Of a stretch of DNA of 39,386 bases, positions 9,737 through 18,134 are shown one piece after another. The stretch covers positions 1 to 39,386 of the forward strand of contig QHUC01000002.1 of NCBI GenBank assembly GCA_003221045.1, written 5' to 3'. The stretch is from Gemmatimonadota bacterium. Its GTDB lineage: Bacteria > Gemmatimonadota > Gemmatimonadetes > Gemmatimonadales > GWC2-71-9. The translations under genes were made by a program, and so were the position numbers. Every line of letters begins with the position of its first letter. Positions within the stretch are counted from its first letter, which is position 1. The notes below the pieces were generated by a model that was not told the origin of the DNA, searched no databases, and saw nothing but the letters and a program-made list of their open reading frames with translations.

Positions 9737-10468
9737 ATGCGTACGCCTCCGCCACCCCCTCGTCCGCCCGGACCGCCGCCGCGGGGACCGACGCCGCCCC
9801 GTGGTCCCACTCCGCCCAAGGCAGGGCCCCCACCCCGCCCGACGGTGAAACCCACGGCTCCCCGCCCCCGCGTCTCGCGGAAGCTCCCGGGCTGGCTGGC
9901 GCGTGCGCAGCGACTGATGTTCCAGCCCACCCAAGAGTGGGTGACGATCGCCGGCGAGTTCACCAGCGCGGGGCCGATCTACACCCGCTATCTCCTCCCG
10001 ATGGCGGCGATCGGCCCGATCGCCGCGACGCTCGGGGCGCTCCTGTTCGATGGCGAGCGCGGCAGCCTGCTGACGTTCGGTGTCGTCCCGATCAAGCTCG
10101 GGGCGGCGGTACAAGCGGGTGTGCTCGAGTTCGTCCTGAATCTCGTCGGTGTGTACGGTTTGGCGGTCGCGATCGACGTGATCGGAGCGTCGGTGGGGGG
10201 ACAACGAAACCGGGTGCAGGCGTTGAAGGTCGCGGCATACGGCAGTACGCCGTACTGGCTCGCCGGCGTGTTCGCCGTGTTCCCGAGAATCGAGCCTCTC
10301 GGCATGTTGATCGGGCTGTACAGCGTGCGTCTGTTTGCGCTCGGACTGCCGCCCGTCATGAAGGCGCCACGCGACCGGACGGCGGCGTACACGCTGTTGA
10401 CGAGCATCGCGGCCGGGCTGATCGTGCTCGTGATCACCGCCATCATCACCCAACTCGTCGTGAGCTAG
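9737..10468 (+). CDS. Yip1-domain family membrane protein with a proline-rich N-terminal extension
   Basis: MRTPPPPPRPPGPPPRGPTPPRGPTPPKAGPPPRP followed by an amphipathic segment and several TM helices (GPIYTRYLLPMAAIGPIAATLGALL, LVGVYGLAVAIDVIGASVGG, SIAAGLIVLVITAIITQLVVS). Confidence 0.65.
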   Translation: MRTPPPPPRPPGPPPRGPTPPRGPTPPKAGPPPRPTVKPTAPRPRVSRKLPGWLARAQRLMFQPTQEWVTIAGEFTSAGPIYTRYLLPMAAIGPIAATLGALLFDGERGSLLTFGVVPIKLGAAVQAGVLEFVLNLVGVYGLAVAIDVIGASVGGQRNRVQALKVAAYGSTPYWLAGVFAVFPRIEPLGMLIGLYSVRLFALGLPPVMKAPRDRTAAYTLLTSIAAGLIVLVITAIITQLVVS

Positions 10469-11262
10469 CGCTGCTCCCGGAACGCCGCGCGCGCGACGCC
10501 ACCCTCGCGCGCCAACAGCGGCCCCGCCGCCGCGAGACCGGCGAGGGCGAACAGCGCGAGGGCGGCGCAATCGAGCGGGATCGGCAACTCGCCGCCGTAG
10601 CCCGAGTCGGCCCATCGGGCGAGCAGGGCGTGCTTCAGGAGGTCCACCCCGTAGGCGAGCGGATTCAGATGCGCGAGCACGTGCAGCACAGGTCCGAGGT
10701 GACGCACCGGGTATAGCGCGCCCGAGAGGAACAGCATCGGGAAGACCACGAAGTTCATCACCCCGGCGAAGTTCTCGATCGAACGCATCCCCGCCGCCAG
10801 CAGCACCCCCAGCGCTCCGAGCGCCAGGCCCGTGAGCACGATGGCCGCGAGGGCGAGCAGCGCTCCGCCGGGCGTCGGCGCGAGACCCACGACCGGCAAG
10901 AGGATCGCCGCGACGACGAGGGCCTGCGCCGTCCCGACGAGCGTGGCGCCCAGCGTCTTTCCGAGCGCGACGGTGCCCCGCCTGATTGGCGCGACCAGCA
11001 TCATTCGCAGCACGCCGGCATCGCGATCGATGACCGTGGACAGCGCCGCGAGGAGCGAGCCGAACATCACGACCATGCCGAGCAGCCCCGGAGCCATGTA
11101 CAGGCGGTAATCGATCTCGCTTCGCCCCGCGAAGACGGCGGCGAAGCCCGCTCCGGCAAAGATCAGCCACACGAAGGGGCGTGCGACGCTCGACAGGGCC
11201 CGGCCCCGCTGCCTCAGGAACCGCACGAATTCACGGACGACGATGCCGTACACCGCTCGCAT
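10465..11262 (-). CDS. ABC-2 type transporter permease, linked to the pqq operon
   Basis: 265 aa multi-TM protein; VVMFGSLLAALSTVIDRDAGVLRMMLVAPIRRGTVALGKTLGATLVG and FVVFPMLFLSGALYPVRHLGPVLHVLAHLNPLAYGVDLLKHAL are typical of ABC2_membrane. Confidence 0.9.
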   Translation of the reverse strand: MRAVYGIVVREFVRFLRQRGRALSSVARPFVWLIFAGAGFAAVFAGRSEIDYRLYMAPGLLGMVVMFGSLLAALSTVIDRDAGVLRMMLVAPIRRGTVALGKTLGATLVGTAQALVVAAILLPVVGLAPTPGGALLALAAIVLTGLALGALGVLLAAGMRSIENFAGVMNFVVFPMLFLSGALYPVRHLGPVLHVLAHLNPLAYGVDLLKHALLARWADSGYGGELPIPLDCAALALFALAGLAAAGPLLAREGGVARAAFREQR

Positions 11263-11264
11263 GC

Positions 11265-12017
11265 TCAGCTGGCGCCGGTCTGGGCCAGCTCGTGGCCGGT
11301 TCGCGCCAGAAACACCTCTTCGAGCGAGGCGACACCCGCCACCCGCTTGAGCTCGGCGGGCGTGTCGAGCGCGGCGAGCCGGCCCCGGTCCATCACCGCG
11401 ACGCGATCACACGGCTCCGCCTCCTCCACGTAATGCGTCGTCAGGAACACCGTGAGGCCGGAGGACGCGCGCAGGCTCCGGATCAGCTCCCACAGGGAGC
11501 GGCGGGCTCGCGGGTCCAGCCCCGCCGTCGGCTCGTCGAGAAACAGGATGCGGGGCTCATGAAGGATGCCCCGCGCAATGTCCGCCGCGCGACGCATGCC
11601 CCCCGAGAGGGACCGGACGGAATCGCGGCGCCGCTCGAAGAGCCCGAACCGTCGGAGCGCGGCTTCGATGCGGGCCGCGGCCTGGTGCTCGGGGAGATTC
11701 CAGAGGCGGGCCGCAAAGCGGAGGTTCTCTTCGACCGTGAGGTCACGATCGAGTGTGGTCTCCTGAAACACGAGCCCGATGTTGCGCCGGACCGCGAGGC
11801 CATCGACGCGGATGTCGTGACCGGCCACGCGCGCCGATCCGCGAGACGGGGCGAGCAGGGTGGCGAGGAGGTGGACGGTGGTGGTTTTGCCGGCGCCATT
11901 GGGGCCGAGAAAGCCGAAGAACTCGCCTTCCCGCACCTCCAGGTCGAGCCGATCGAGGGCGCAGACCGAGCCGAAATCCTTGCCAAGGCCGCGGGCGTCG
12001 ATCGCGGCGGCGGTCAT
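11265..12017 (-). CDS. ABC transporter ATP-binding protein, linked to the pqq operon
   Basis: Walker A GPNGAGKTTT, signature LSGGMRR, Walker B RILFLDEPTAGLDP, H-loop TTHYVEEAE. ATG at 12017 overlaps the pqqE stop. Confidence 0.95.
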   Translation of the reverse strand: MTAAAIDARGLGKDFGSVCALDRLDLEVREGEFFGFLGPNGAGKTTTVHLLATLLAPSRGSARVAGHDIRVDGLAVRRNIGLVFQETTLDRDLTVEENLRFAARLWNLPEHQAAARIEAALRRFGLFERRRDSVRSLSGGMRRAADIARGILHEPRILFLDEPTAGLDPRARRSLWELIRSLRASSGLTVFLTTHYVEEAEPCDRVAVMDRGRLAALDTPAELKRVAGVASLEEVFLARTGHELAQTGAS

Positions 12018-13138
12018 CCCTTCGCGGCGAGGGCGCGCGACGCGGGCGCCGCGCGGTAGGTCCACTGGCCGTCCGTCCGCCCCGCCGCCGAGTCGCGCTC
12101 TCCCTTCGCTACCACCGCGTCGATCAAGGGGCGATGCGGCGACAGCGAGCAAACCGGGTCAGTGACGGCGGCGTCGCCGGTCACGAGAAATGCCTGGCAG
12201 CGGCACCCACCGAAATCCTGCGCCTTGCGCGGGCACGACCGACACGGTTCGGGCATCCAGGCGTCACCGCGGAAGCGCGTGAACGCCTCCGAGTGCTCCC
12301 AGATCCACTCGAGCGGCCGGTCCCGCACGTTCTCGAATTTGAGCGTCGTGATCCGCCCCGCGGCGTGACACGGCCAGACCTCGCCGGCGGGGGTCACCGT
12401 CATGTATGCCCGCGCCCAGCCGCCCATACACGGCTTGGGATACTGCTCATGGTAGTCGGGCAGCACCCACACGATCTCGAGCCTGGTCCCGAGGCGTGCC
12501 CGCTCCCGCTGCACGACCTGCCACGCCTCATCGAGCTGGGCCTTGGTCGGCATGAGCGCGTCCCGGTTGTGCAGCGCCCAGCCGTAAAACTGCGTGTTCG
12601 CGAGCTCGATGCGCTCGGCGCCGAGCGACTCGGCCAGCCGAATGAGCGCTTCGACCTGATGGAGGTTCCGGCGGTGGAGGACGACGTTCACCGTGAGGGG
12701 AAATCCCAGGTCCCGCGTGTAATGGTACGCCGCGATCTTGTCCCGATAGGAGGCGGTGCCCGCCACCCGGTCGGACAGCTCTTCGTCCGCGCCCTGAATA
12801 CTGATTTGGACGTGATCGAGTCCCGCCGCCTTCAGGGCCGCGAGACGCTCCTTCGTGAGACGGTAGGCGGACGTGATGAGCGACGCGTATAAGCCGACGT
12901 CGTGCGCCGTGCGGATCAGATCCTCGAGATCGGGCCGTAGCGTAGGCTCGCCTCCCGAGAGACCCAACTGGAGGACGCCGAGCGCCTTCGCTTCGCGGAA
13001 CACCCGACACCACTCGGCCGTCGAGAGCTCCCCTTTGAAGCGCCCACCGGCGAAGTCCAGTGGATTCGAGCAATAGGGACACTGCAGCGGGCACTTGTAG
13101 GTGAGCTCCGCCAACAGCCAGAGCGGCTTAGGGTCCAT
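12014..13138 (-). CDS. pqqE: PqqA peptide cyclase (radical SAM) PqqE
   Basis: MDPKPLWLLAELTYKCPLQCPYCSNPLDF (CxxxCxxC), LGLSGGEPTLRPDL, QISIQGADEE; C-terminal SPASM-type cysteines (PEPCRSCPRKAQDFGGCRCQAFLVTGDAAVTDPVCSLSPHR). Sits in pqqABCDE order. Confidence 0.97.
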   Translation of the reverse strand: MDPKPLWLLAELTYKCPLQCPYCSNPLDFAGGRFKGELSTAEWCRVFREAKALGVLQLGLSGGEPTLRPDLEDLIRTAHDVGLYASLITSAYRLTKERLAALKAAGLDHVQISIQGADEELSDRVAGTASYRDKIAAYHYTRDLGFPLTVNVVLHRRNLHQVEALIRLAESLGAERIELANTQFYGWALHNRDALMPTKAQLDEAWQVVQRERARLGTRLEIVWVLPDYHEQYPKPCMGGWARAYMTVTPAGEVWPCHAAGRITTLKFENVRDRPLEWIWEHSEAFTRFRGDAWMPEPCRSCPRKAQDFGGCRCQAFLVTGDAAVTDPVCSLSPHRPLIDAVVAKGERDSAAGRTDGQWTYRAAPASRALAAKG

Positions 13139-13406
13139 ACGTCACGAGCCCCTTGGCGGCCAGGCCCTCGAGAAACGCGCCGACGTCCGGCGCGAGACCG
13201 GTCGTCGCGTAGCGGCGCTCCAATGTCGCGACGATGTCCGCCAACGAGCGGGTCCCGTCGCACAACTTGAGTATCTCGACTCCGGTGGTGTTCAGCGTCA
13301 CGAGCCCTTCCGGGTACAGCAGGACATCCCGCCCGCGCACATCGTCCCGCGAGAGCCGTGCCTTCGGGTGCAGTCGCGGCGCGCGTGCGTCGGCCACGGC
13401 GCTCAC
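13128..13406 (-). CDS. pqqD: PQQ biosynthesis peptide chaperone PqqD
   Basis: VSAVADARAPRLHPKARLSRDDVRGRDVLLYPEGLVTLNTTGVEILKLCDGTRSLADIVATLERRY; GTG start at 13406 overlaps the pqqC stop by 4 bp. Confidence 0.93.
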   Translation of the reverse strand: MSAVADARAPRLHPKARLSRDDVRGRDVLLYPEGLVTLNTTGVEILKLCDGTRSLADIVATLERRYATTGLAPDVGAFLEGLAAKGLVTYGP

Positions 13407-14143
13407 CGTGGGGTGCCGGGGAGCGGGCCGCGCTCCACCGCGTCGAGCAGGCACCACAGGACGTCGCACTTGAACTCGAGGGCCGCGACCGCACGCTCCT
13501 GCTCCGCGCGCCCCTGAAAGCGCTCAGTCACGAGCCCGAGGGCGTACTCCGCGTCCCGGGGGGCCTGGGTGAGCCGGTTCTTGAAGTATTGGAGGCCATC
13601 CGGATCGACCCACTTGTAGTGACTCAGCATGGCTGCGAGCCGCTCCTTCACGATGAGTGGAGCGAACATCTCCGTGAGCGAGGAGGCGACCGCCTCGAGC
13701 CAGGGCTTGAACCGGCAGAAATTCACGTACGCGTCGACGGCAAAGCGCACCCCGGGCAGGAGGTGCCGCTGGCTCAACAAGTCATCGCGTGGAACACCCA
13801 TTGCCTCGCCCAGCCGCAGCCACGCTTCGATCCCGCCCTCTTCTCCGGGACGCCCGTCGTGGTCGATGATGCGCTGAATCCACTGCTGGCGGACCTCGCG
13901 CTCCGGGCAGCTCGAGAGGATCAACGCATCCTTGACCGGAATACAGATCTGATAGTAGAACCGGTTCGCCACCCAGCGTTGCAGCTCTTCTCGAGACAGC
14001 TCGCCCGAGTGCATGCGCTGGTTGAAGGGATGGAGATGATGGTAGCGTCGCTCCAGCACGCCCCGCAGCCGGCGCACGAACTCATCGCGAGCCCACGGCT
14101 CCCCTCCCCCGACGGACGCCCGAGAAGCCGCGGGCGCGCTCAC
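13403..14143 (-). CDS. pqqC: Pyrroloquinoline-quinone synthase PqqC
   Basis: YHHLHPFNQRMHSGELSREELQRWVANRFYYQICIPVKDALILSSCPEREVRQQWIQRIIDHDG...; GTG start at 14143 overlaps the pqqB stop by 4 bp. The longer track ORF (431 aa) has an out-of-frame N-terminal extension. Confidence 0.95.
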   Translation of the reverse strand: MSAPAASRASVGGGEPWARDEFVRRLRGVLERRYHHLHPFNQRMHSGELSREELQRWVANRFYYQICIPVKDALILSSCPEREVRQQWIQRIIDHDGRPGEEGGIEAWLRLGEAMGVPRDDLLSQRHLLPGVRFAVDAYVNFCRFKPWLEAVASSLTEMFAPLIVKERLAAMLSHYKWVDPDGLQYFKNRLTQAPRDAEYALGLVTERFQGRAEQERAVAALEFKCDVLWCLLDAVERGPLPGTPR

Positions 14144-15051
14144 AGCTCGAACTCCATGCCGTCTTCGCCCACCTCGATCCCTGCCGCCCCTACCTGCGCA
14201 CGCTCTGCGGAGCCGTGGCTCAGGATCGGGTTCGTATTGTTGATGTGCACGTACACGATGCGCTTCGCGCCGACACGGGGGAGGAGCTCCAGGCTCCCCC
14301 CTCGCCCGCCTACCGGAAGGTGGCCCATCTCGCGCGCGGTAGGCGCATCGGCGGAGGCGCTCGCGTGACGCAGCTCGTCGTCCGACCAGAAGGTGCCGTC
14401 GAACATGAACAGATCCGCGCCGCCCGCGATCCGGCGCACGGCCTCGTCCACGCCACCCGCCGTGGGAACGTAAGCGAATGTGCCGCCGGTGCGCTCGTCC
14501 GTGATGCGCAGGCCGACGTCGAACGTCGCGGCTGGAGCTGAGCGGGCGTAGCGCGGTGGGCGTCGCGCCACGGCCGTCGCGGAGCAACACAGGCCGAGTG
14601 AGACGCCGGCGCCATCCGCGAGCGCGATCGGGCGACCTTCCTCGAGCGTCCGAGCGTCGACCCCAGAGTACGCCGACAGGACCCGATACAACGGCCACTC
14701 GGCGCCGAGGAGCGCGGTCACACCAGCAGGGGCGTACACGGGCAGCCGCGCAGCGCTCTCCCGCAGCAACAGAAGCCCGAGCGTATGGTCGATTTCACCA
14801 TCGGTGAGAACGACCGCGGCCACGGGCGAGCCTCGCTTGCGGCGGGGCCAGAGGTGCGGATGCATGGCGAGCTGGGTACGAAGATCGGGCGAGGCGTTGA
14901 GGAGAACCCACCGCTCGCCATCGGCACTGACAGCTACCGAGGATTGCGTGCGCCCAGTACCACTGGTTCGCGCCTCGGCGCAATTCGCGCAGCCACAGTT
15001 CCACTGCGGCACGCCACCGCCTGCCGCCGAACCGAGGATGATTATGTCCAT
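14140..15051 (-). CDS. pqqB: PQQ biosynthesis protein PqqB
   Basis: MDIIILGSAAGGGVPQWNCGCANCAEAR, SSVAVSADGERWVLLNASPDLRTQL, VLTDGEIDHTLGLLLLRES, VYVHINNTNPIL; metallo-beta-lactamase-like PqqB. Confidence 0.96.
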   Translation of the reverse strand: MDIIILGSAAGGGVPQWNCGCANCAEARTSGTGRTQSSVAVSADGERWVLLNASPDLRTQLAMHPHLWPRRKRGSPVAAVVLTDGEIDHTLGLLLLRESAARLPVYAPAGVTALLGAEWPLYRVLSAYSGVDARTLEEGRPIALADGAGVSLGLCCSATAVARRPPRYARSAPAATFDVGLRITDERTGGTFAYVPTAGGVDEAVRRIAGGADLFMFDGTFWSDDELRHASASADAPTAREMGHLPVGGRGGSLELLPRVGAKRIVYVHINNTNPILSHGSAERAQVGAAGIEVGEDGMEFEL

Positions 15052-15052
15052 T

Positions 15053-15083
15053 GAACAAAAGGGCCGGGTTCTTCACCCGGCCC
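15053..15083 (-). terminator. Intrinsic terminator-like/attenuator hairpin between pqqA and pqqB
   Basis: Plus strand GGGCCGGGT-tcttc-ACCCGGCCC (15061-15083), a 9-bp perfect stem with 5-nt loop; read on the minus strand it is followed by TTTTGTTC (15060-15053). Confidence 0.75.
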
Positions 15084-15107
15084 CTCCCTTAACCGTTGCG
15101 GCCTGGT

Positions 15108-15182
15108 TCAGGCGTTGCCGGCGTACGCGCCGACTTCCATCCCCAGCTCAACAACTGCGAATTCGGGTTTCGTCCAAGTCAT
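15108..15182 (-). CDS. pqqA: PQQ precursor peptide PqqA
   Basis: MTWTKPEFAVVELGMEVGAYAGNA (24 aa) with the E-x-x-x-Y crosslink motif (E16, Y20), a GGAGGAA Shine-Dalgarno upstream, and position directly before pqqB. The track shows it only as the tail of an 83-aa ORF. Confidence 0.95.
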   Translation of the reverse strand: MTWTKPEFAVVELGMEVGAYAGNA

Positions 15183-15242
15183 TTTAGCGTTCCTCCGAGG
15201 GCTACAATGGTCGACCACTACTAGCGCTCGCCCCCTCACCTC

Positions 15243-15258
15243 CGCAGGGGATGTGCCA
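15243..15258 (-). promoter_or_regulatory. Putative sigma-54 (-24/-12) promoter for pqqA
   Basis: Minus strand TGGCACATCCCCTGCG against consensus TGGCAC-N5-TTGCW: GG and GC invariant doublets at correct spacing, one mismatch in the TTGC block. Predicted +1 near 15232, about 50 nt before the pqqA ATG. Confidence 0.75.
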
Positions 15259-15392: not shown

Positions 15393-16772
15393 TTACGGCT
15401 GAACCCCGAACTTTCTGAGTCGATAGCGCAACGTATCCCGGGAGATCCCGAGGCGTTGCGCCGCCTTCGTCTGGTTGCCACCCGCGTCGCGCATCGCCCG
15501 CTCGATCATCGCCTTTTCCCAATGCGCGAGGTCCACTCCCTGGGGCGGCAGCGAGGGTTGCCCGACGGCGTGCGGTTCGGCGGACGAGCCGTGATCGGGG
15601 CTCGTGAGCGAGAGATGCTCGACCTCGAGGGTCGGTCCGCGGCTCCAGAGCACCGCGCGCTCGATCACGTGGCTCAGCTCGCGTACGTTGCCGGGCCAGG
15701 GGTAGGAGAGGAGCAGCTCGCGAGCGGGGGCGCTGATGTCGCGCACGCTGCGCCCGTACTTGGCATTGAGCAGACGGAGGAAGTGCTCGGTGAGGAGCAC
15801 GACGTCTTCGCCCCGGTCGCGTAACGGTGGGACGTGGAGCACGATCACCGCGAGCCTGAAGTAAAGATCCGAGCGGAACCGCTCGCGCTGGACCTCTCGC
15901 TCGAGGTCGCGGTTGGTGGCCGCGATGATGCGCACATCGATCTTCCGCTCCCGGACGCTGCCCACGCGCCGGACGGCGCGGTCCTCGATCGCGCGCAACA
16001 GCTTCCCCTGCACCGACAGATCGACGTCGCCAATCTCGTCGAGAAACAGGAATCCCCCCTCCCCTGCCTCGAACAGTCCCGGCTTCGACTCCTTGGCATC
16101 GGTAAACGCGCCCCGCTCATAGCCGAACAGCTCGGCCTCCATGAGCGTCGCCGGAATGGCCGTGCAGTTGACCTCGATGAACGGTTTGGCGGCCCGCACA
16201 CCGGACGCGTGGATCGCGCGCGCGAGGAGACCTTTGCCGGTCCCCGTTTCCCCCGTGAGCAGCACCGGGGGCGTGTCCGCCAGCTCGGCGAGCTGGCGGG
16301 CCCGCTCGAGGACGGCCCGGGCGGCGGGCGACTGTCCCACCATGGTCGCGAATCCGACGTCCTCGGTGGCCCGGCGACGATAGTAGGAAAGCTCCTGCTT
16401 GAGCTGGCGGTTCTCGCGCGCGCGGTCGGCCAGGAGCTTCAGCTCCTCCAGATCCACGGGCTTCTTGACGTAGTCGAAGGCACCGAGCTTCACCGCCTCC
16501 ACCGCGCCTTCGATCGAGCCGTAGGCGGTCAGCATGATGACCGGGAGGACGGGATCGAACTCGCGGATCCGCTTCAGGAGATCGATCCCGCTCATCCCCG
16601 GCAACCGAACGTCCGCGAACACGACATCCGGTTGCAGGCGCTCGAGCAGCTCGAGGGCCTGCTCACCCGAGCCCGTGACTTCGGCCTCGTAGCCGTGGTC
16701 CAGCAGAAAGGCTTTGGCGGACCGGGCAAGGGTCTGTTCGTCGTCGACGATCAGGACGGTGGAGCCGTTCAT
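15393..16772 (-). CDS. NtrC-family sigma-54-dependent response regulator (REC-AAA+-Fis HTH)
   Basis: REC domain TVLIVDDEQTLARSAKAFLLDHGY...DVVFADVRLPGMSG; AAA+ LLTGETGTGKGLLARAIH, ELFGYERGAFTDAKESKPGLFEAGEGGFLFLDEIGD; C-terminal Fis HTH GGNQTKAAQRLGISRDTLRYRLRKFG. Confidence 0.96.
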   Translation of the reverse strand: MNGSTVLIVDDEQTLARSAKAFLLDHGYEAEVTGSGEQALELLERLQPDVVFADVRLPGMSGIDLLKRIREFDPVLPVIMLTAYGSIEGAVEAVKLGAFDYVKKPVDLEELKLLADRARENRQLKQELSYYRRRATEDVGFATMVGQSPAARAVLERARQLAELADTPPVLLTGETGTGKGLLARAIHASGVRAAKPFIEVNCTAIPATLMEAELFGYERGAFTDAKESKPGLFEAGEGGFLFLDEIGDVDLSVQGKLLRAIEDRAVRRVGSVRERKIDVRIIAATNRDLEREVQRERFRSDLYFRLAVIVLHVPPLRDRGEDVVLLTEHFLRLLNAKYGRSVRDISAPARELLLSYPWPGNVRELSHVIERAVLWSRGPTLEVEHLSLTSPDHGSSAEPHAVGQPSLPPQGVDLAHWEKAMIERAMRDAGGNQTKAAQRLGISRDTLRYRLRKFGVQP

Positions 16773-18134
16773 GCGGGCTGCCGCGCCGCCGCGGGCGCCG
16801 GTGTCAGAGCGGGTGTCGCATCGCCCGCGCTCGGCAGCCAGATGCGAACCGTGGTGCCGTGCGCCACGACACTGGTGATGCTGAGCCGGCCGCCGGTCTC
16901 CTCGACGTAGCGCTTGGCGATCGCCAGCCCGAGGCCCGTGCCCTCGGCCCGCGTCGTGAAGAACGGCTCACACACGTTGGCCAGGACCTCGGGGGCGATG
17001 CCACCGCCCGAGTCGGTGATCGTGAGGGCGACGCCGTCGGTGCCGCCATCGCTCGGCTCGCATCGCCCCTCGATGGAGAGTCGACCACCCTCGGGAGGCA
17101 TCGCGTCGAGCGCGTTGGAGACGATTTCAGTCAGTGTTTGCTCCAGGCGCATTGGGTCCACGCGCACGTCGGGAAGCGTGGGCGCGAGGCTCACGACGAG
17201 CTCGACGCGGCGCTCCCGCAGGAGCTCGGCGATGCCGCCGAGCGCCGCCTCGACCATCACCCGCACGCTTTCGCGCAGCGGATGAAACGGAGCGGGGCGC
17301 GAGAACGCGAGGAGGTGCGTGATCCGGAGATCGAGGCGGTCCACCTGCTCGATGATCGCGTTGAGCTGCTCGCGCGCCGCGGGCGCGTCCACGCGGTGCC
17401 GGGCCAGCTGGGCCGCGGCGCGCAGGCTCGCGAGCGGATTCCGCAGTCCGTGCGCCACCGCCGCCGCCATCTGACCGATCGAGGCCAGCTTCTCGGACTG
17501 GATGAGCTGGGCGTGGAATTGACGCAACCGCTCCGTCATTCGCGCGAAGGACCGCGCGAGCTCCCCGATCTCGTCGCGTGATCGACCAGAGGACGCGACG
17601 CTCCGTCTCCACGATGCCTTCGACCTCGACCAGGGCGCGCTGGACGCTGAACTCCCGAGCCTTGCGGTAGATGTCCCGATTCACCGACGCGAGGGCAGGT
17701 TGCAGGCGTTCCACCAGCTGCTGGCGCGCGGTGAGGTAGGCGGCCTCGCGCCGGCCGGAATCGTAGAGCTTGAACACCGAGTCGGCCACGGATCGGATCT
17801 CGAGCTCGATCTTGCGGACGCCGTCGGCGAGGGTGACTTCGTCGGCGGGGAGCCCCGCCGTCCAGCGGTCGAGCCAGAAGTCGACCACCTGCTCCGTGAG
17901 CGGGAACTCCTGCTTGGCCGCCGGATCACCGCTCAGGTAGCGCCAGACCACCTGGGTCTGATTGAACATCGCGTCTTCCACCTCGGCGTACGTACGCGAC
18001 TGCGCCAGGCGCCCCCCGAGGCCCTCCAGCGCCTCCTGCTCCCGAGCGTTGGTCCGGATCGCATGGAGGCCGACCAACAGGGCCGGAAGGACCATGAGGG
18101 AGAAACCGAGGAGCAGTTTGCGCTGGAGGGTCAC
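16769..18134 (-). pseudogene. Sensor histidine kinase, frame-disrupted; second TM helix and most of HAMP missing
   Basis: N-terminal frame (18134 down) has TM1 (LLLGFSLMVLPALLVGLHAI) and a helical sensor through VEVEGIVETERRVLWSI. The HisKA/HATPase frame (RDEIGELARSFARMTERLRQFHAQLIQSEKLASIGQMAAAVAHGLRNPLASLRAAAQL...EPFFTTRAEGTGLGLAIAKRYVEETGG) is in another frame ending at 16769. Junction near 17560-17590. Confidence 0.8.

Follow-up and report, generated by a model that had tools for sequence, protein, structure and literature searches.

In the synthesis of PQQ the precursor peptide is spent one molecule at a time, so that an operon for this cofactor needs far more PqqA than enzyme. Known hairpins offer some comparisons. 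In puf and malEF, a hairpin that separates a strongly expressed first gene from the rest of the operon acts on RNA decay and needs no U-tract, and in phage T4 gene 38 a hairpin with an SD-like sequence at its 5' foot is found just before the start codon. For pqqA, a short transcript of the pqqA type was reportedly seen alongside a longer one in M. extorquens by Ramamoorthi and Lidstrom in 1995. RNA-seq of P. brassicacearum gave log2 TPM values of 12.77 for pqqA and 6.86 for pqqB, about 60-fold apart within one operon (PMC6722718), and in Methylosinus OB3b, where pqqA is unlinked, the values of 11857-13927 for pqqA and of about 306-313 for pqqB differed about 40-fold (PMC3615186). More generally, work on bottromycin described imperfect terminators as a common feature behind RiPP precursor genes, where they reduce expression of the genes further on, and inferred one after btmD (PMC7113386). 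Nothing direct on a pqqA stem-loop or a pqqA terminator was found in the literature searched.

The locus analysed here lies in a stretch of 39,386 nt (contig QHUC01000002.1, hereafter the window) from a Gemmatimonadales MAG of 2.8 Mb and 85% completeness. Judged from its sequence, the element found between pqqA and pqqB fits the known RiPP precursor-attenuator kind: the precursor gene comes first, a GC hairpin with a U-tail follows directly, and no promoter room is left for the downstream modification genes. It differs from the described cases in its product, the cofactor PQQ, in belonging to Gemmatimonadota and in staying with the precursor gene before pqqE or pqqC, and in that the transcript drop is known from distant organisms only. 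A gammaproteobacterial class sample shares with this locus the hairpin after pqqA, in position and fold; the hairpin sequences are unrelated, and the transcript figures come from Proteobacteria, whereas the Gemmatimonadota are known here from sequence alone. What this analysis adds is the universality and covariation of the hairpin in Gemmatimonadota and its staying with a relocated pqqA.

The pqqA-pqqB junction in the window

The operon occupies the minus strand of the window in the order pqqA, pqqB, pqqC, pqqD and pqqE, all co-directional, with the precursor gene preceding its modification genes. PqqA, PqqB, PqqC and PqqE scored above the curated NCBIfam cut-offs and PqqD above the Pfam cut-off. 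The features of the junction are listed below in the direction of transcription, each with its basis.

15243..15258 (-): sigma-54-like -24/-12 element TGGCACATCCCCTGCG (GG-N10-GC), 76 nt 5' of pqqA (motif in relatives)
15191..15196 (-): Shine-Dalgarno (SD) GGAGGA of pqqA, 8 nt 5' of its ATG (sequence)
15108..15182 (-): pqqA, 24-aa PQQ precursor peptide MTWTKPEFAVVELGMEVGAYAGNA with an E-x3-Y core (TIGR02107, 27.2 bits, cut-off 20)
15110-15108 (-): pqqA stop codon TGA (sequence)
15083..15088 (-): GGGAGG, SD-like, at the hairpin's 5' foot and no more than partly free once the hairpin has folded (sequence)
15075..15083 (-): hairpin 5' arm GGGCCGGGT (sequence, fold, covariation)
15070..15074 (-): hairpin loop GAAGA (sequence, fold)
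15061..15069 (-): hairpin 3' arm ACCCGGCCC (sequence, fold, covariation)
15052..15060 (-): U-rich tail TTTTGTTCA, also written UUUUGUUC, from the stem to the pqqB ATG (sequence, conserved T enrichment)
14140..15051 (-): pqqB, first gene past the hairpin, ATG at 15051-15049 (TIGR02108, 352.8 bits)

The start codon of pqqB was fixed by the conserved N-terminus running into LGSAAGGG-PQWN. The stem, located 24 nt past the pqqA stop, is GC-rich and followed directly by the U-tract TTTTGTTC, as in the sequence of an intrinsic terminator. The core of the original prediction, a hairpin of terminator type separating pqqA from pqqB, proved to be real, with a perfect stem of 9 bp at 15083-15061 and the ATG at 15051; the interval assigned to it, 15053-15108, corresponds to the intergenic region, the hairpin proper being confined to 15061-15083. 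The SD-like GGGAGG at its foot had no place in that prediction. The strength of this stem was reached by just 6 of 5,000 dinucleotide shuffles of the intergenic sequence, its fold z-score was -2.6 and its sequence is unique across the whole assembly. A simple terminator scan did not pick up the site, probably because the stem was extended into the U-tract via G-U and A-U pairs. Directly 3' of the pqqA stop there is also a second stem-loop of 5 bp (15092-15104, minus strand; GGCCG-CAA-CGGTT and variants), which is present in the window's genus and in near genera with some compensatory changes.

Conservation of the stem and of the U-rich tail

PqqB was detected above the cut-off in 48 of the 288 genomes of the window's order. 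The junction set comprised every Gemmatimonadota locus with adjacent pqqA and pqqB (n = 42); locus L026 was left out, its PqqB giving no match to the start motif used. The classes of G288 and G289, which yielded one and the same set of genomes, were counted once. A hairpin of 9-16 bp was found between the two genes in all 42 loci and also, outside this set, in L233 and L234, which belong to other families of the class. Over the total of loci tabulated, the comparison across related pqq operons that had been proposed placed a hairpin 3' of pqqA in 48 out of 48, 42 of them before pqqB and 6 before pqqE or pqqC.

Covariation was counted on loop-anchored arms, since in the MAFFT alignment the two principal stem types were shifted against each other. 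In each of the 15 distinct 9-bp arm pairs all nine positions were paired, a pairing of 100% compared with a mean of 68%, and never more than 85%, when the arms were re-dealt between sequences. Double changes (C-G to G-C, G-C to A-T and others) were present at most stem positions and reached a maximum of six between the stems of L117 and the window. It should be considered that the hairpins were chosen by their best stem and that full pairing is therefore partly a matter of construction, a bias covered by the shuffle control, in which the weakest observed stem was matched by 10 of 4,200 shuffles. Members of the same genus are not independent; the covariation is based on the 15 distinct stems, drawn from several genera and families. 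On this comparative evidence, it is the helix, and not its letters, on which selection acts.

The tail was conserved as well. At positions +1 to +7 past the GC core, T occurred in 77, 75, 69, 54, 58, 71 and 48% of the 48 loci, against 15.5% in the genome. The distance from hairpin to start codon spanned 4 to 57 nt, and in 13 of the 14 loci whose spacers measured at least 20 nt the T-run adjoined the hairpin and not the start codon (p = 0.001), with a mean of 6.2 T per 10 nt beside the hairpin versus 2.5 beside the start codon. As the T-tail stays with the hairpin in these long spacers, it argues for an element of the pqqA 3' end. In a terminator score of the d'Aubenton Carafa type, which serves comparison only, the window hairpin obtained 37.9; values above 0 were given by 36 of the 48 pqqA hairpins, but by just one of the 287 gene ends scored in the window's genome, and the T-run was displaced or weak in the 12 relatives scoring below 0. 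A scan of 962 kb of this genome on both strands for perfect stems of at least 8 bp with a T-rich tail returned 4 sites, when 0-5 were expected by chance, and the pqqA site was the highest in T. Classical intrinsic terminators are thus sparingly used in the window's genome, which nevertheless keeps one inside the pqq operon. Other means of termination seem to operate at the gene ends of the MAG, and the scarcity of U-tailed terminators elsewhere in the genome weighs against taking efficient release at pqqA for granted.

We consider it likely, on these data, that the hairpin and its U-tract form the 3' end of pqqA and work as a leaky intrinsic terminator within the pqqABCDE operon. The 9 nt from the stem to the pqqB ATG leave no room for a promoter between the hairpin and the next gene; only readthrough can supply pqqB, and any termination must be leaky. 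Transcription would begin 5' of pqqA, the sigma-54-like element (15258-15243) being the probable promoter. Most polymerases would be released around 15052-15058, leaving a short pqqA mRNA that carries a strong SD and is protected by the hairpin, while a minority would read through into pqqBCDE. Leaky termination, together with the dependence of pqqBCDE on readthrough, would give a high pqqA:pqqB ratio, with many PqqA peptides, one of which is consumed per PQQ, and few of the enzymes, which are catalytic. An excess of pqqA mRNA through partial termination had been anticipated, and the comparison (universality, covariation, a T-tail tied to the hairpin, and the relocations treated below) supports it well; termination, its partial nature and the size of the excess are, all three, what we infer from it. 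We take the hairpin as a conserved and real regulatory RNA element whose function is most likely ordinary. What the comparison suggests is a cis element setting the surplus of precursor, in a phylum that has been little studied and is for the most part uncultured; the element offers a portable part for tuning the precursor-to-enzyme ratio in engineered PQQ or other RiPP operons.

The same 3' end could also arise without termination, if polymerases read through, the mRNA were cut 3' of the hairpin and the pqqBCDE RNA decayed while the hairpin shielded the pqqA mRNA from 3' exonucleases. An intercistronic stabiliser of this sort, which would resemble those of puf and malEF in being a hairpin after the first operon gene, is suggested by other lineages. 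In the Methylomirabilota (L172, L211-L232) a long hairpin lies between pqqA and pqqB, with z < -2 in 21 of 22 junctions, its arms being mostly AGCCCTTC/GAAGGGCT; it has no U-tract, and a G-rich pqqB SD is found downstream. In Paracoccus a hairpin follows pqqA in 8 of 11 loci, most of them without a real U-tract, and the stems are, as in Methylomirabilota, long and GC-rich. Given the hairpins without a T-tail in Methylomirabilota and most Paracoccus, termination is not the sole use of such a structure, and the existence of useful hairpins lacking a U-tract, most simply explained as stabilisers, keeps this alternative alive; the displacement of the T-run by 3-5 nt in several Gemmatimonadota hairpins is also compatible with it. 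A stabiliser needs no T-tail, however, and the Gemmatimonadota element differs from puf and malEF precisely in a conserved tail, enriched and attached to the hairpin even far from the start codon. For the Gemmatimonadota hairpins we hold stabilisation without termination, the main rival to leaky termination, to be unlikely.

Elsewhere, a hairpin was found after pqqA in 21 of 27 junctions from a class sample centred on a gammaproteobacterial MAG, and many of these hairpins are U-tailed. The other alphaproteobacterial junctions were mostly without one (z < -2 in only 4 of 35), and none was present in the 5 Acidobacteriota junctions, where the gaps measured 0-11 nt. It is conceivable, and we propose it tentatively, that the hairpin 3' of pqqA is a convergent solution with two mechanisms: a lineage nearly devoid of U-tailed terminators would keep one to set a stoichiometry, bound to just one gene of 24 codons, and hairpins would have arisen or been kept independently in Gemmatimonadota, Methylomirabilota, Gammaproteobacteria and Paracoccus. 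Of these hairpins, some would terminate transcription and others, without a U-tract, would stabilise RNA.

Relocated pqqA genes and translation signals

In eight genomes pqqB was not preceded by pqqA. The precursor gene was located in six of these; five (L243-L247) carry it ahead of pqqE and the sixth (L248) ahead of pqqC, and in all six a hairpin was found directly 3' of pqqA, as in L248 (GGGCCGGGT-GACCA-ACCCGGCCC-TTTTTTCTC). No such hairpin was found when the pqqB genes of the genomes with a relocated pqqA were checked; in several of L243-L248, pqqB lies directly 3' of another gene. From the relocated copies it is evident that pqqA retains the hairpin as a part of itself. Because it follows pqqA whatever enzyme gene comes next, the hairpin behaves as an element of the pqqA 3' end rather than as a translation switch specific for pqqB, and the relocations are, as far as genome comparison goes, the strongest single evidence against a translational role of the latter kind.

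A structure controlling pqqB translation had been offered as the other reading of the hairpin. In such a role it would either block 30S binding or bridge the GGGAGG at its foot to the ATG, as proposed for T4 gene 38. The translation signals themselves invite this idea. An SD 4-mer was present 5' of pqqA in 41 of the 42 loci, and the lack of an SD between stem and pqqB ATG, correctly noticed in the window, was common to 40 of the 42. In the window, the GGGAGG of the foot and the 9-nt tail would add up to a normal spacing if the hairpin were looped out, and an SD-like sequence at a hairpin foot near a start codon is what the window shares with T4 gene 38. Among the called genes of the window's genome, however, only about one third carry an SD 4-mer and about two thirds do not (figures obtained with a simple codon-usage caller that is good for 3' ends and rough for starts), so that the missing SD of pqqB, though real and conserved, is not exceptional in itself. 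Furthermore, and in contrast to T4 gene 38, neither the spacing of 4-57 nt nor a free SD is constant in Gemmatimonadota: GGGAGG showed no conservation as an unpaired element, its GAGG being usually buried within the stem, and the hairpin accompanies pqqA, not pqqB. With the variable spacing, the absence of a conserved free SD and the tracking of pqqA, a hairpin-bridged SD was discarded as a general explanation, and control of pqqB translation by the hairpin, in either form, appears improbable. The strong SD of pqqA and the missing one of pqqB point in the same direction as a high pqqA:pqqB ratio.

The succession of a short ORF, a terminator and biosynthetic genes resembles the attenuators of amino-acid operons, and pqqA might accordingly encode a leader peptide, or PQQ might be sensed by the RNA, with an alternative fold preventing the terminator. 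Across the 42 loci, however, the 5' arm had no competing partner that paired more strongly than the hairpin, and none that went beyond shuffled upstream sequence, a result from which we argue that the ratio is fixed and not regulated. The stem of the window, besides, lies farther past the pqqA stop than a ribosome at the stop codon is expected to reach, and no riboswitch was matched in Rfam, where the search at gathering and permissive thresholds gave no RNA family. Regulated attenuation is hence very improbable in our view. Two sub-threshold Rfam matches overlapping the hairpin, sX14 and ar35, were weak and judged to be chance. Finally, a functionless chance stem or a dispersed repeat can practically be dismissed, for many chance stems are expected in GC-rich genomes, but this one is conserved with covariation and at a constant position in 48 of 48 loci and has no second copy in the assembly.

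Probable upstream promoter and neighbouring genes

A sigma-54-like motif with 10 or more matches out of 12 was found upstream of pqqA in 22 of the 42 loci, versus 3 of 42 in shuffled sequence; the window itself has 9 of 12 matches, and most relatives of the same family carry a similar motif 64-80 or about 100-125 nt 5' of pqqA. The sigma-54-like element of the window is, on this distribution, the probable pqqA promoter. It is adjoined on the same strand by genes for an NtrC/AtoC-type response regulator (15393-16772) and a histidine kinase (16769-17539), an arrangement that suggests two-component, sigma-54 control of PQQ synthesis. At the other end of the operon, 3' of pqqE and also on the minus strand, an ABC transporter is encoded at 10465-12152 (ATPase, 11265-12152; ABC-2 permease, 10465-11262), which may be part of the pqq operon.
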